Assembly: GCA_016871255.1 (NCBI GenBank)
Contig: VFZH01000006.1
Span: 1 to 56,814 of the forward strand
DNA from: Acidimicrobiia bacterium
GTDB taxonomy: Bacteria; Acidobacteriota; Vicinamibacteria; Vicinamibacterales; UBA2999
DNA: 56,814 bases
Direction: 5' to 3'
Shown here: positions 41,814 through 47,165 of the stretch, one piece after another
Numbering within the stretch: the first letter of the stretch is position 1
Layout: each line of letters starts with the position of its first letter
Notes under the pieces: model-generated
Database searches by the model: none
What the model was told of the DNA's origin: nothing
Seen by the model: only the letters and a program-made list of their open reading frames with translations
Made by a program: the position numbers and the translations under genes

Positions 41814-41819
41814 GTAGCA
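41814..41819 (+). promoter_or_regulatory. -10-like TAGCAT directly upstream of the PCYCGC gene
   Basis: Ends 8 bases before ATG 41828, supporting that codon as a leaderless start over the ATG at 41819 that overlaps it. Confidence 0.35.
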
Positions 41820-41827
41820 TGATCGGC

Positions 41828-42334
41828 ATGCGATCAACTCTCATTTCGCTCGGCGCCGGTCTGGTCCTGGTCGCGTTCACGTCGGTGGCACTCTACGGCC
41901 TGGCCGCCCAGCGCGGGCAGGCGCCCGCGGCCGCCGTCAAGCCGGCGCCGCCGGGACCGCTGCCTCCCATCCCGTATGACGGCTACCCGGCGCCGCGGCC
42001 GATGCCCATGGTGCAGGCCACCTACGAGTTTGCGGCGCGGCACCCGGAAGTCCTCAGCCACATGCCGTGCTTCTGCGGCTGCGACCGCAGCGCGAACCAC
42101 GGGTCGAACCACGACTGCTTCATCAAGCGGCGCGGCGCCGATGGCCGGATCCTCGAGTGGGATTCGCACGGCTACGGGTGCGCCATCTGCATCGACGTCG
42201 CGCGCGACGCCATGCAGATGCACAATGCGGGTGCCTCGGTCGTGGCCATCCGCAACGCGATCGACGCGAAGTACGGACCGCGTTTTCCGGGCGTGAACAT
42301 GCCCACGCCGAAGCCGACTGCCGCGAACAGGTGA
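41828..42334 (+). CDS. Secreted PCYCGC-motif protein
   Basis: 168 residues: a signal peptide or anchor (LISLGAGLVLVAFTSVALYGLAA), a Pro-rich stretch, then the PCYCGC-type domain with MPCFCGCDRSANHG, HDCFIK and GYGCAICIDVARDA. The three Cys clusters plus His suggest a bound metal, probably outside the cytoplasm; the family has no established function. ATG 41828 gives a better signal peptide than ATG 41819. The gene precedes the histidine kinase gene by 42 bp. Confidence 0.8.
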   Translation: MRSTLISLGAGLVLVAFTSVALYGLAAQRGQAPAAAVKPAPPGPLPPIPYDGYPAPRPMPMVQATYEFAARHPEVLSHMPCFCGCDRSANHGSNHDCFIKRRGADGRILEWDSHGYGCAICIDVARDAMQMHNAGASVVAIRNAIDAKYGPRFPGVNMPTPKPTAANR

Positions 42335-42376: not shown

Positions 42377-43933
42377 ATGAGCCGGACGCCCGCCGGCACT
42401 GACCCACGGGCCCGGGGCCGCACGGCGGCCCTGGCCCGTTTCCTGGACGAAGCGCCGTTCGGCGCCTTCGTCGGCACCGTTTCCCTCCACGAACCCGGCG
42501 ACGGCACCGTGGTCGCGATGAACCCCGCCGTGGCGCAGCTCTTCGGCGCCCCCGCACAGGCCCGGCTGCATCCGCTGGCACCCGAGCGGTTCGGCGACCC
42601 GGCCGCCAGGAAGGTACTACTCGATCGACTCCGTGCCGGTGAAGAAGTCGCCGACCACCTGGTCCGGATGCGCACGATCGACGGCGCGCCGCTGTGGGTC
42701 GAGGTCACGGCGACGGCGATGCCTTCCCGTCGCCGCGGCGTGATCGCCGTCCGGGCGCTGCTGCGCGACGTGAGCGATCGGCGGCGGCGCGACGACCAGT
42801 CCCGTGCACTCCACCAGCAGCTCCTGCAGGCGGACAAGATGGCCGCGCTCGGACACACGGTGTCCGGCGTCGCCCACGAGCTGAACAACCCGCTGGCCAC
42901 GATCCTGAGCTGGGCCGAGCGGCTGTCGGAGCGGCCGCTGCCACCCGGATCGAGGGAGGGCGTGCGCGTCATCCTCGCGGAAGCCGAGCGCGCGGCGCGC
43001 ATCGTCCGCAACCTGCTGACGCTGGCGCGCAAGCGTCAATCGACGCGGGCCATGGTGGACGTGAACGAGATCATCCGCCACACGCTGGCGCTGCGCGCCG
43101 ACGACCAGCAGGCGCTCGGCGTGGTCACGGTGCAGGACCTGGCGGAAGGGCTGCCGCCGCTGCTCGCGGACGGGCACCAGATCCAGCAGGTGCTCCTCAA
43201 CCTCGTCATCAACGCCGAGCAGGCGATGCGGGCGGCGCACGGCGGCGGCCGACTGCTGGTGCGCACCTCCTTCGACCGCGAGCGACACAGGGTCGTGCTC
43301 GCGGTGGACGACGACGGACCGGGGATTCCCGAGGAGGTGCGTGCACGGATCTTCGATCCGTTCTTCACCACGAAGGCGGTGGGCGAGGGCACGGGCCTCG
43401 GGCTGTCGGTGGCCTACGCGCTGGTCCAGGAGCACGGCGGCCGCATCGACGTGGGCTCGGCGCCGGGCGGAGGGGCTGCGTTCCGCGTCGCGCTGCCGGT
43501 GAGTACGCCGCTCGCGACGCCACCGCCCCGGCCCGTCACGACGCCACCGCGTGGCGAGCTGCGGGGGCGTTCCGTCCTGGTCGTCGAAGATGAGCGCCCG
43601 CTTGCCGCGGCGGTCCTGGAGGCGCTGGGTGACGCAGGCCTGACCGTCACCTACGCCGAGGATGGCGCGCAGGCGCTGGCGCGACTCGCCGAACGGCGCT
43701 TCGATCTGGTGATCTGCGATCTGAAGATGCCGCGGGCAGACGGCCAAGCGGTGTACCGCGCGCTGCAGGCGCTCGATCCGCCGCCACCGGCAATCTTCGT
43801 CACGGGCGAGATTGCCGGCGGCGACGCCGAACGGTTCCTGCACGAGACGCGGGCGCGGTGGCTCGCCAAGCCGTTCCGGCTGGCGGAGCTGCTGCAGGCC
43901 GTGCGCGACGCGCTCGTCGTACCCCGGCCCTGA
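42377..43933 (+). CDS. Hybrid histidine kinase (PAS-HisKA-HATPase-REC)
   Basis: 518 residues, apparently cytoplasmic. A PAS-like sensor spans about 20-135. The phosphoacceptor is H167 in VAHELNNPL, an NtrB-like group. The ATPase has [10 protein letters not shown] (N box), DDDGPGIP (G1) and GTGLGLS (G2). A Pro-rich hinge leads to a C-terminal receiver with D448 (CDLKMP) and K498 (AKPF). The internal receiver suggests phosphate passage to another partner or self-control. No separate cognate regulator is adjacent, although the NtrC-type gene at 45768 is a candidate. Confidence 0.93.
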
Positions 43934-43948: not shown

Positions 43949-44872
43949 TCAGCGCGCGGCGGCTGCCGCCGGCTGCGCCACGAGCGACCTGCGTGCGGTC
44001 GAGGCGCGAGCCATCTTCCGAGGGGTCGTGCGAGCGGCCGCGTACCGCACGACCGTGCCCTCCCGCGCGGGAAACGAGCCGTCGTGATCGATCGCGGCCC
44101 TGGCCATCTCCGGCTTCGGCACGAACGGCAGCACCGACGCGCGCAGCGTCGCCATGGCTTCGGTCCCCGAGAGCGAGCCGAGCGCCTCGCGCAGCCGGCG
44201 GATCGCACGCGCGTGCAGCTGCGAGACCCGCGACTCGTTGACGCCGATCTCGGAGCCGATCTGCTTCATCGTGGCTTCGCGGAAGTAGTAGAGCCCGATC
44301 ACCTTCTGCTCGCGCGCAGGCAGCCTGGCGATCGCGGCGCGCACGCGTGCCTTCGTCTCCTCCCGCTCGTAGGCCGAATCGGGCCGCTCGGGCTCGGAGG
44401 GCACGAGCACCGCCGGCAGCGACGCGTTCTGCGCCGACTCCGCGCTCGCCAGCGGCGACGTGGACTCGATGGTGTTGATGCGCACGATGGTCCGGCCGAG
44501 CTGCTTTTCGTCCGTGCCGACCCTGGCCGCGAGATCCGCCAGTGACGGCTCGCACCCGAGCTCGCGACGCAGCTCCTCGCGCGCGGCTTCGAGCTCGCGG
44601 CGCTGGCGGCGGACGCCGCGCGGCCACGCATCCCGCCGGAGCGCGTCGATCATCGCGCCCCGAACCCGGCGCTCGGCGAACGTCTCGAACTTGATGCCAC
44701 GCGCCTCGTCGAAGCGGTGCGCGGCGTCGATCAGCCCGATGACGCCGTCCTGCACCAGGTCGCCAACGTCGATCGAGTGGGGCATCGTCGCAGCCACCCG
44801 GCGGGCGAGCTGCTCCACGAACGGAAGACTGGCAACGACGCGAGGATGATTGGTGCTGGTCTGCGGACGCAT
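43949..44872 (-). CDS. FliA/WhiG-type (sigma-28 family) sigma factor with C-terminal extension
   Basis: 307 residues. Region 2 reads DLVQDGVIGLIDAAHRFDEARGIKFETFAERRVRGAMIDALRRD; region 3 follows with ELGCEPSLADLAARVG. Region 4 is LPAREQKVIGLYYFREATMKQIGSEIGVNESRVSQLHARAIRRL. This is the flagellar/WhiG group. About 70 extra residues follow region 4, rich in Arg, Ala and Ser, which is unusual. ATG 44872 has GGAGG 8 bases upstream. No flagellar gene is in the window, so the regulon is open. It is convergent with the hybrid kinase gene. Confidence 0.92.
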   Translation of the reverse strand: MRPQTSTNHPRVVASLPFVEQLARRVAATMPHSIDVGDLVQDGVIGLIDAAHRFDEARGIKFETFAERRVRGAMIDALRRDAWPRGVRRQRRELEAAREELRRELGCEPSLADLAARVGTDEKQLGRTIVRINTIESTSPLASAESAQNASLPAVLVPSEPERPDSAYEREETKARVRAAIARLPAREQKVIGLYYFREATMKQIGSEIGVNESRVSQLHARAIRRLREALGSLSGTEAMATLRASVLPFVPKPEMARAAIDHDGSFPAREGTVVRYAAARTTPRKMARASTARRSLVAQPAAAAAR

Positions 44873-45043
44873 GACGTAACCTCCGCCACCCTCTACCGCA
44901 ACCACGGTACCAGCGCTGACGACATCGCTCCGGATCAGGCCGCGATGCACGATCCTTCGCTGGAACTAACTGTACATCCTGAACTTATACAGCAGTTCCC
45001 ACCATGGGCACGTTCTGCACACCATACGGGGTTTCACCAGAAT

Positions 45044-45091
45044 CGTCAAGTTTCTGACGACAGATCCATGACATTCGCCAATACATTGGCG
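45044..45091. promoter_or_regulatory. Two short inverted repeats upstream of the sigma-factor gene
   Basis: CGTCA-N6-TGACG (45044-45059) and CGCCAA-TACA-TTGGCG (45076-45091) lie in the 308-bp gap 44873-45180. They are candidate operator sites. The gap holds no gene that I can support. Confidence 0.35.
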
Positions 45092-45180
45092 ATGCTGATT
45101 ACGATTGTGGTGTCCAGGAAACTGCCGACGCCGGCTTTCTGGTGCCGGGCGGGCAGGCGTGTCAGGAGGACCGGGGTCCG

Positions 45181-45420
45181 CTACTGGCGGGCAGGCTGTT
45201 CGACGTGGGCGCGGATGGCCCGCGAGATGCCCATGGCTTCGAGCACGCTGTTCACCATCTGCGCGGCTCTGGCCCGCTCGACGTCGGTGGTCGCTCTCGA
45301 CTCGAGCAGTTCCGCGTGCGCGAGGACGATGCCGAGCTGGTTGTTGAGCTGGTGGAACAGCGTGCGCAGCTCCAGGGTCGGCTCTGCGGGGGTCGCCTCG
45401 TGCCCCTCGGACAGGTTCAC
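45181..45420 (-). CDS. Stand-alone HisKA/DHp-like phosphoacceptor protein (79 aa)
   Basis: 79 residues, two predicted helices. LRTLFHQLNNQLGIVLAHAELL (H23 followed by QLNN) matches the phosphoacceptor helix of NtrB-type kinases (H-E-x-N-N-x-L); the second helix is DVERARAAQMVNSVLEAM. No ATPase domain follows; the frame ends at 45181. It could act as a phosphotransfer or dimer-disrupting partner for the nearby kinase or NtrC-type regulator. GTG 45420 overlaps the stop of the HTH gene by GTGA, so the pair is co-translated. Homology is by motif only. Confidence 0.65.
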   Translation of the reverse strand: MNLSEGHEATPAEPTLELRTLFHQLNNQLGIVLAHAELLESRATTDVERARAAQMVNSVLEAMGISRAIRAHVEQPARQ

Positions 45421-45629
45421 ACCTGCAGGCCCGCCTCGGGGCCGGACTTCACGGGCGACGGGCGCCGCTCCTGGGGCTCGCGCCACAGGGAGTCGGCGAA
45501 GATGCGGATGGCTCCGCCGGCGGTGCGCACGTACTGCACCTTGCCGCTGGCAATCCAGTTGTAGATCGTGCGCCGGCTCACGCCGACGACCTGGCACGCC
45601 TTGGTGATGGGGAGTGTCTCTCGCTCCAT
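45417..45629 (-). CDS. Small excisionase/MerR-like helix-turn-helix DNA-binding protein
   Basis: 70 residues from ATG 45629. LPITKACQVVGVSRRTIYNWIASGKVQYVRTAGGAIRIFADSLWRE is a winged-helix HTH of the excisionase/HTH_17 family. A longer start at 45680 exists, but the shorter one gives the family N-terminus. There is no integrase nearby, so a regulator role is more likely than excision. It forms a GTGA-coupled pair with the phosphoacceptor protein and is divergent from the NtrC-type gene across 138 bp. Confidence 0.8.
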   Translation of the reverse strand: MERETLPITKACQVVGVSRRTIYNWIASGKVQYVRTAGGAIRIFADSLWREPQERRPSPVKSGPEAGLQV

Positions 45630-45730
45630 GGCCTCTTTCCGGGTCCGGACGCTGCCGTCCTTGCCCAGACTTCTCGGCATCAGCGGGAAGGGACGTTAGT
45701 GGCGAAACGGATTGACAGTCGGGGCGGTTT

Positions 45731-45746
45731 CGTCAAACGATTGACG
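45731..45746. promoter_or_regulatory. Inverted repeat CGTCAA-ACGA-TTGACG before the NtrC-type gene
   Basis: Perfect 6-bp arms, 22 bp before ATG 45768 and between divergent genes. Related CGTCA/TGACG arms occur at 45044-45059, so a common binding protein, perhaps the small HTH protein, is possible. Confidence 0.4.
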
Positions 45747-45767
45747 ACTCTGGCCCGCATCCTCTAA

Positions 45768-47165
45768 ATGGCTGCCCCACTGGCACATATCCTCTTCGTC
45801 GACGACGAGCCCGCCCTCCGGGAGGTCACGGCGGAGCGTCTGACCGAGGCTGGACACGAGGTCGTGCAGGCGGAGAGCGGCGAGCGCGCCGTCGAGCTCC
45901 TCGAGCAGTTTGCCTTCGACGTGCTGGTGACCGACCTCCGGCTGCCGGGCATGAATGGCCTCGCGGTCATGGAGGCCGCGCTCGAGCGCTACCCGGGCAT
46001 CATCGCCATCGTGCTCACCGGGTACGGAACGGTCAGGGACGCGGTGCAGACGCTGCAGAACGGGGCCTCGGACTTCATCGAGAAGGGGCTGCCGTTCGAC
46101 GCGCTTCTGCACAGGCTGAACAAGGCGATCGAGCAGCGCCGCCTCGCGCAGGAGAACGTCTACCTGCACTCGCAGCTCGCCCGGTACACGGGCGGCGGCA
46201 TCGTGGGCAGGAGCCGGCCGATGCAGGAGCTGTTTCAGCTCATGGACGCGGTCGCGCCGTCGGCCAGCACGGTGCTGATCCGCGGGGAAACCGGGACGGG
46301 CAAGGAGGTGGTGGCGCGGGAGATCCATCGCATGAGCCCGAGGCGCACGCAGCGGTTCGTGGCGATGAACTGCGGCGCCATTCCGGAAACCCTGCTCGAG
46401 GCCGAGCTCTTCGGGCACGTGCGGGGGGCCTTCACCGGCGCGGTCGCGATGCGGCAGGGCCGGTTCGAGCAGGCGAACAAGGGCACGCTGTTTCTCGACG
46501 AAGTCGGCACGATGAGTCCGGCGCTCCAGATGAAGCTGCTCCGGGCGCTCCAGGAGCGCGAGTTCGAGCGCATCGGCGACACCCAGACCCTCAAGGTGGA
46601 CGTGCGCGTGATCGCCGCGACCAACTCGGACCTGGCAGCGATGGTGAGGGATGGCACGTTTCGCGAGGATCTCTACTACCGCCTCGACGTCATCTCGCTC
46701 GAGTTGCCGCCGCTCCGGAACCGTCGCGACGACATTCCGCTGCTCGTCCAGCACTTCCTCGAGCGGTTCGCTGCCGCGTCCGGCCGCACCGCAGACGCCA
46801 TGCAGGTTTCACAGGGCGCGATGCGCCGGCTGATGGCCTACGACTGGCCGGGCAACATCCGGCAGCTCGAGAACGCCATCGAGCGGGCCGTCGCGCTGGG
46901 TGCCGGCCGCGCGCTGATCGACGTGGACGATCTGCCGCCGGAGGTTCGGACGGCCGAGGATGCTCCGGTGGCGGTGGCGACCGACTTCCCCCAAGACGGT
47001 CTCGACCTCGCGGAACACCTCCGTGCGATCGAGCGCGACCTGATTCGCCGTTCGCTCGAGCGCACCTCCGGCAACCGGAACAGGGCGGCGGATCTGCTGC
47101 GCCTCAAGCGCACGACGCTCGTCGAGAAACTGAAACGCATGGGATCCCGCCCCGAGGTCAGGTAG
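45768..47165 (+). CDS. NtrC-family sigma54-dependent response regulator
   Basis: 465 residues: receiver (D56 in TDLRLPG), AAA+ activator domain and Fis-type HTH. Walker A is GETGTGKE (173-180), the sigma54-contact loop is GAFTGA (220-225), Walker B is LFLDEVG (241-247), and the C-terminal HTH ends RTSGNRNRAADLLRLKRTTL. It remodels sigma54-RNA polymerase after phosphorylation. The receiver lysine is followed by Gly (EKGLP) instead of the usual Pro. The next gene begins directly at the stop, so co-transcription is certain enough. Target promoters were not identified. Confidence 0.94.
   Translation: MAAPLAHILFVDDEPALREVTAERLTEAGHEVVQAESGERAVELLEQFAFDVLVTDLRLPGMNGLAVMEAALERYPGIIAIVLTGYGTVRDAVQTLQNGASDFIEKGLPFDALLHRLNKAIEQRRLAQENVYLHSQLARYTGGGIVGRSRPMQELFQLMDAVAPSASTVLIRGETGTGKEVVAREIHRMSPRRTQRFVAMNCGAIPETLLEAELFGHVRGAFTGAVAMRQGRFEQANKGTLFLDEVGTMSPALQMKLLRALQEREFERIGDTQTLKVDVRVIAATNSDLAAMVRDGTFREDLYYRLDVISLELPPLRNRRDDIPLLVQHFLERFAAASGRTADAMQVSQGAMRRLMAYDWPGNIRQLENAIERAVALGAGRALIDVDDLPPEVRTAEDAPVAVATDFPQDGLDLAEHLRAIERDLIRRSLERTSGNRNRAADLLRLKRTTLVEKLKRMGSRPEVR

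Follow-up and report, generated by a model that had tools for sequence, protein, structure and literature searches.

A candidate DHp-only histidine phosphotransferase encoded among hybrid kinase, FliA/WhiG-type sigma factor, and NtrC-type regulator genes in Vicinamibacterales

In the CckA-ChpT-CtrA systems of Caulobacter and Brucella, phosphate is shuttled from the receiver of a hybrid kinase to a DNA-binding regulator by a single histidine of ChpT, a kinase-derived protein that does not autophosphorylate (PMC3433190, PMC9981736, PMC5898713). ChpT has retained a C-terminal ATPase-like domain in degenerate form, and descriptions of Spo0B and PhyT also class these two as degenerate kinases. HPt proteins (Ypd1 and the HPt of ArcB and RcsD) link a hybrid-kinase receiver to a response regulator by means of a four-helix bundle formed within one chain. 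In HisKA domains, the acidic residue next to the phosphoacceptor His (+1) is required only for kinase activity and the Asn or Thr at +4 only for phosphatase activity, and replacing the His itself lowers phosphatase activity little (Willett and Kirby, PMC3510030).

The 79-residue protein described here, designated DHP, is similar to ChpT, Spo0B, and PhyT in being a proposed kinase-derived DHp protein with one His, but it consists of the hairpin alone, lies under a FliA-type promoter, and would feed an NtrC-type sigma-54 activator. It matched none of the ChpT/Spo0B/PhyT-type family models and is not filed with these proteins because the ATPase-like domain is absent; the dimer and the phosphotransfer by which they are recognized are predicted properties of DHP. 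Its proposed role is that of an HPt, from which it differs in having two helices, not four in one chain, with an NtrB-like H-box (HQLNN), and model searches returned no HPt match. The nearest identifiable relatives are the HisKA (DHp) domains of NtrB/CrdS-type kinases, the kinase of the locus included, which share with DHP the H-box His, the Asn at +4, and the two-helix hairpin; unlike them, DHP has no ATPase domain and no acidic +1 residue, and the Pro at +5 of the kinase H-box is replaced by Gln. No description of the DHP circuit was found in the open-access literature searched.

The gene for DHP lies on a 56,814-nucleotide stretch (the window), which is contig C6 of a 3.9-Mb genome that is 99.8% complete. 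It belongs to a cassette in the order hybrid kinase, FliA/WhiG-type sigma factor, DHP, HTH protein, and NtrC-type regulator, with the kinase and regulator genes on the forward strand and those in between on the reverse. The 518-aa kinase (PAS-HisKA-HATPase-receiver, positions 42377 to 43933, forward) carries an HELNNPL H-box and a receiver with all of its residues (E-D, D, T, and K) present. Just upstream, positions 41819 to 42334 encode a small protein that carries a PCFCGC-type cysteine motif; many loci have an orthologue at the corresponding position, and the protein could be part of the signal input. The sigma gene (43949 to 44872, reverse) scored 201.3 bits against TIGR02479 (FliA_WhiG), above the cutoff of 189.6; the listed ORF begins at GTG 44950, but the start is probably the ATG at 44872, because a conserved sigma-54 promoter sits at 44898 to 44912. 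DHP is encoded at 45181 to 45420 (reverse; GTG start at 45420, stop at 45181) and overlaps by GTGA the gene of a 70-aa HTH_17/excisionase-BldC-like DNA-binding protein (45417 to 45629, reverse; ATG 45629, TGA 45417 to 45419). The latter was above the cutoffs of both HTH_17 (35.3/27 bits) and TIGR01764 (35.2/28.8 bits) and below that of the BldC model (23.9/77 bits). Positions 45768 to 47165 (forward) encode a 465-aa regulator that is a complete NtrC type by its domains (receiver, AAA+, and Fis HTH) and its GAFTGA motif. Its receiver reads FIEKGLPFD, with a KPFxF-type motif in nearly all orthologues; the lysine is retained. An earlier note on this DNA had described a DHp-like two-helix unit with HQLNNQL and no ATPase, a GTGA shared with an excisionase-type HTH gene, and a FliA-type sigma gene, a sigma-54 activator, and an HELNNPL hybrid kinase nearby, and the ORF, the overlap, and, by domain and model searches, the neighboring genes were confirmed.

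The DHP reading frame ends after the second helix. AlphaFold2 modeled the protein alone as two long helices (residues 14 to 41 and 46 to 74; core pLDDT of about 97, pTM 0.66), as expected of the hairpin proposed earlier, and the best PDB fold match of the model was the DHp domain of GacS (probability 1.00, TM 0.64/0.82, E 0.29), the nonsignificant E values of the fold matches being due to two-helix hairpins being common. No Pfam or NCBIfam model matched the window DHP; Pfam HisKA, to which it was unmatched, was hit weakly by 13 of 46 homologues, with a best E of 0.0017 and the gathering score not reached, and a PDB sequence search with the family profile gave nothing significant. At the profile level, hhalign aligned DHP to the DHp of kinases from these loci with a probability of 89% and an E of 2.5e-7, the latter applying to one comparison. 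Across the phylum, the next-best matches of the DHP profile were kinases, among which the locus kinase recurred in many genomes with further matches, and descent of DHP from the DHp of the locus kinase is a plausible inference from these comparisons.

The His and the Asn at +4 (His23 and Asn27 in the window) were invariant in all 87 intact DHP sequences, some of which are from the same genome with different ends, the count by genome being in agreement. A conserved His had also been anticipated in the earlier description of the protein as phosphoacceptor-like. At +1, the residue was R, Q, K, T, S, or A and was acidic in only one sequence of the 87 (from G308). Such a residue pattern is that of a domain not capable of autokinase activity, possibly a phosphatase, that has kept the His that phosphotransfer needs; since this His matters little for HisKA phosphatase activity, its invariance points to phosphotransfer. 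The dN/dS of DHP was low in the closest pairs, mostly <0.1. A chance or vestigial ORF is ruled out by this value, by the invariant His, and by the occurrence of DHP in 133 genomes. Open frames of 593 to 613 aa around DHP in three loci (L193, L194, and L195), considered as possible fusions, run antisense to the regulator gene.

With a profile built from 46 homologues, DHP was detected in 133 of 162 genomes of one large order of soil Acidobacteriota, presumably Vicinamibacterales, in exactly one copy each. Beyond the order, the best matches weakened from about 1e-20 to 1e-7 or worse, and these were mostly HisKA domains of full kinases. The gene order and orientation seen in the window were kept across about 15 families, and the constant partners of DHP were the sigma gene, the sigma-54 activator, and a hybrid kinase whose receiver is intact. 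In family f4, the genes for the kinase and regulator have been relocated away from sigma-DHP; where they have moved (L062, L208, and L209), DHP still adjoins the sigma gene.

The intergenic DNA was conserved as well. Between DHP and the sigma gene, and facing the latter, the sigma-54 motif TGG[CT][AC][CT]N4-5TTGC was found in 79 of 87 genomes compared to 0.35 in shuffled sequences, a ratio which, like the others given here, describes conservation and not a probability because the shuffles keep only base composition and the genomes are related. In the window, this promoter (TGGTACCGTGGTTGC, 44898 to 44912, reverse) lies 25 nt before the ATG of the sigma gene. Upstream of it are two copies of an 18-bp palindrome with 7-bp arms, TCGTCAA-N4-TTGACGA, taken to be the upstream activating sequence (UAS): TCGTCAGAAACTTGACGA (45043 to 45060), centered about 140 bp from the −24 box, and TCGCCAATGTATTGGCGA (45075 to 45092), 32 bp further upstream and centered about 172 bp from it. 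With ≤4 mismatches, the UAS occurred in 82/87 genomes versus 6.8 expected, specifically with a spacer of 4, which is the real form, a spacer of 5 giving no result. At least two sites were present in 72/87 genomes at a 5-mismatch threshold, typically 31 to 33 bp apart, and the tandem sites were centered at distances of around 140 and 172 bp from the −24 box. A further, perfect copy (TCGTCAATCGTTTGACGA, 45730 to 45747) lies between the HTH and regulator genes; it and the one-mismatch copy at 45043 to 45060 were the best in a whole-genome palindrome search. Outside the locus, the only single-mismatch copy in the genome is at G000:C220:2661-2678, which may be a target or due to chance, and weaker copies elsewhere mean nothing, since sites with two mismatches total 20 against 15 for the control.

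A FliA-type motif, CTANNG-N13-15-GCCGA[TG], faces the HTH gene in 35 of 70 genomes, compared to 0.1 in shuffles, and none of the 70 has it facing the regulator gene. In 1.32 Mb, there were 41 strict sites, 37 of them before HTH and three directly before DHP in genus g262, which has lost the HTH gene; families f3 and f11 include 10 genomes without HTH, and in these no such site was found before DHP. The window has a degenerate form, CTAACG-N15-GCCGAGAA (45671 to 45699, reverse), of this motif conserved in its relatives, in position to serve HTH-DHP. The only strict match in the genome outside the locus is at G000:C114:8502-8528, again a possible target or chance. Since the sigma-54 promoter, the palindromes, and the FliA-type promoter are all conserved, expression of the sigma factor should be turned on by the regulator, and that of DHP, in turn, by the sigma factor. 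We regard this cascade, from activator and sigma-54 to the sigma gene and on to HTH-DHP, as highly probable.

The distribution of DHP also bears on its partner. Of the DHP-bearing genomes, 79 have the kinase in the locus, and the receiver residues of this kinase (E/D-D, D, T/S, and K) were intact in every one of them. Nine genomes lacked DHP despite the stretch being spanned, and in six of these either the kinase or its receiver was gone or had degenerated: the receiver was lost in G053 and the kinase in G457, while in G509, G510, G511, and G512 the acid pair of the receiver was changed to EH, EN, EH, and EE, respectively. The other three (G009, G021, and G023) retained intact receiver residues, from which it follows that the activator may not always need DHP. 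The association was significant by Fisher test (p 1.6e-7 by genome and 2e-4 with genus g267 counted once, deeper relatedness being ignored in both), corresponding by lineage to two or three events, with G053 and g267 sharing one family. Eight genomes whose contigs break off within the locus (G007, G016, G039, G041, G338, G437, G454, and G475) were left out of this count. Kinases that appeared to be receiver-less in L071, L074, and L197, and the relocated kinases of G465 to G467, were artefacts of frame choice, an N run, or long linkers, and their receivers are intact. All nine DHP-less loci retained the sigma gene, and the UAS and sigma-54 promoter were kept in DHP-less genomes. A decayed remnant of DHP, VARLNDELGVAFAHAERF, from which the phosphoacceptor His is gone, lies between the sigma and HTH genes of G021 (L185). 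In G050, DHP, the sigma gene, and the regulator are present with no recognizable kinase orthologue.

Overall, the support readable from the sequences comprises the cassette, the conserved His and Asn at +4 together with the missing acidic residue at +1, the predicted hairpin, the promoters and UAS, and the co-loss with the kinase receiver. We favor, with somewhat better than even confidence, a reading in which DHP is a minimal, DHp-only histidine phosphotransferase acting between the kinase receiver and the regulator and expressed as feedback. DHP would dimerize into a four-helix bundle, and phosphate would pass from the kinase His to the Asp of the kinase receiver, to His23 of DHP, and to the Asp of the regulator, or in the reverse direction as a drain. 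The phosphorylated regulator would bind the tandem palindromes upstream of the sigma-54 promoter and, with sigma-54, turn on the FliA/WhiG-type sigma gene; the sigma factor would then transcribe HTH-DHP from the FliA-type promoter, closing a feedback loop on the phosphorelay. This loop would be self-reinforcing with phosphotransfer and self-limiting with phosphatase activity. Synteny, the invariant His and Asn, the match to the kinase-DHp profile, the co-loss with the receiver, the promoters, and the fold match to GacS DHp would all be consistent with phosphotransfer, whereas the three DHP-less genomes with an intact receiver, the kinase-less G050, and an Asn at +4 as invariant as the His would speak against it. 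Also on the negative side are the small number of co-loss events by lineage, the nonsignificant fold matches, the weak HisKA hits, and the lack of a FliA-type site before DHP in families f3 and f11.

The main rival to a phosphotransferase is a dedicated aspartyl-phosphate phosphatase, in which Asn27 would position a water molecule to dephosphorylate the regulator or the kinase receiver, so that the sigma cascade would be under negative feedback. With its invariant Asn at +4 and no acidic residue at +1, DHP matches HisKA mutants that are kinase-dead but phosphatase-competent (PMC3510030). Its FliA-type promoter places it below the regulator, a natural position for negative feedback, and the regulatory DNA kept by the DHP-less genomes indicates that activation can run without DHP. 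However, HisKA phosphatase activity hardly depends on the His, which is nonetheless invariant in DHP, and a phosphatase of the regulator would not be expected to vanish as the kinase receiver decays. We thus consider a phosphatase rather unlikely, if the strongest of the alternatives. DHP could also be a noncatalytic binder, e.g., an anti-sigma factor or escort of the neighboring FliA-type sigma factor, or a receiver decoy. Small helical partners of FliA-type sigma factors are known (FlgM), and DHP stays beside the sigma gene even where the kinase and regulator have moved. This explanation is improbable in our view, as an H-box in which His and Asn are strictly conserved while the +1 position varies freely is hard to account for without phosphoryl chemistry; moreover, model searches gave no FlgM match, and the sigma gene persists in every DHP-less locus.

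Lower still in probability is a direct partnership, in which the HTH-DHP pair is the working unit and the HTH protein is under direct control of DHP through the phosphorylation state of the latter, close to the proposal of the earlier note that the pair could intercept phosphate and report to DNA. The translational overlap of the two genes and their co-occurrence in 76 of the 89 DHP-bearing genomes surveyed are in its favor; the overlap is of 4 nt with the HTH stop in 21 of 41 pair-bearing loci (45 loci examined). Yet DHP persists without HTH in the 13 other genomes (families f3 and f11 and genus g262) and HTH without DHP in five, and in g262 the FliA-type promoter directly precedes DHP after the loss of HTH. 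An obligate HTH-DHP module as the basic unit is rejected on these counts: the gene pairing predicted earlier is indeed conserved, and is common but separable. What stands of the earlier interpretation is, hence, a DHp-only, phosphoacceptor-like protein with an invariant His, under selection, usually adjacent to the HTH gene and amid kinase, sigma, and NtrC-type genes, and what lacks support is the two-gene unit. The simplest route to DNA is through the activator, by way of its own UAS and sigma-54 promoter.

In flagellar systems (FlgSR and FlrBC), a two-component NtrC-type activator drives a FliA-type sigma gene through a sigma-54 promoter. The window's genome has no flagellin gene, as is the case for 34 of the 59 genomes of the set examined, and flagellated relatives carry a separate FliA in their flagellar clusters, about 40% identical to the locus sigma factor; a flagellar regulator is thereby rejected as an identity of the locus in this genome. 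The flagellar cluster of the Luteitalea-like G037 holds an NtrC-type regulator 49% identical to that of the locus. Given this regulator and the separate FliA, the sigma factor and activator of the locus look like paralogues of the flagellar ones that have been repurposed. The sequence of activator, sigma-54, and FliA-type sigma factor is the same as here. Compared to such flagellar hierarchies (for one, see PMC7064773), the locus adds the hybrid kinase, DHP, and the HTH protein, its sigma factor would feed back on DHP, and flagellin is missing.

In other Acidobacteriota, flagellar operons were also seen to encode distant stand-alone DHp-like mini-proteins of 66 to 118 aa: between flgE and fliL (L267:5877-6077, reverse; HisKA E 4e-5, below the cutoff) in a cluster that also has an NtrC-type regulator and a kinase, directly after flgE (L269:16694-17050, forward), and near fliN (L268:9054-9296, reverse). 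Another type of stand-alone mini-protein (HELSNALETI.QAAYLL) occurs in two further Acidobacteriota genomes of one family (L115 and L116), and G006 encodes a 215-aa protein (L270:8890-9534, forward) made of a HisKA-like hairpin (HDLNNALTTVLGHAEWLL) and a receiver with no ATPase domain. Minimal DHps may form a broader unnamed class.

A more far-reaching version of the phosphotransferase reading, which we advance tentatively and hold with less than even confidence, is that a phosphotransferase reduced to the DHp hairpin and split from its kinase has become an obligate link of the relay, transcribed by the very sigma factor that the relay activates, so as to form a self-reinforcing or self-limiting switch that has outlived the flagellar hierarchy in which the sigma factor and activator originated. 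If phosphotransfer by DHP is true, a DHp hairpin alone, with no ATPase-like remnant, would suffice as a phosphotransferase, about the smallest kinase-derived one. The wiring from phosphorelay to sigma-54, FliA-type sigma factor, and phosphotransferase would be readable from the DNA, and a natural experiment would be provided by those lineages where decay has affected the transferase along with the kinase receiver. It would also mean that a near order-wide circuit operates in these abundant, poorly studied soil bacteria.
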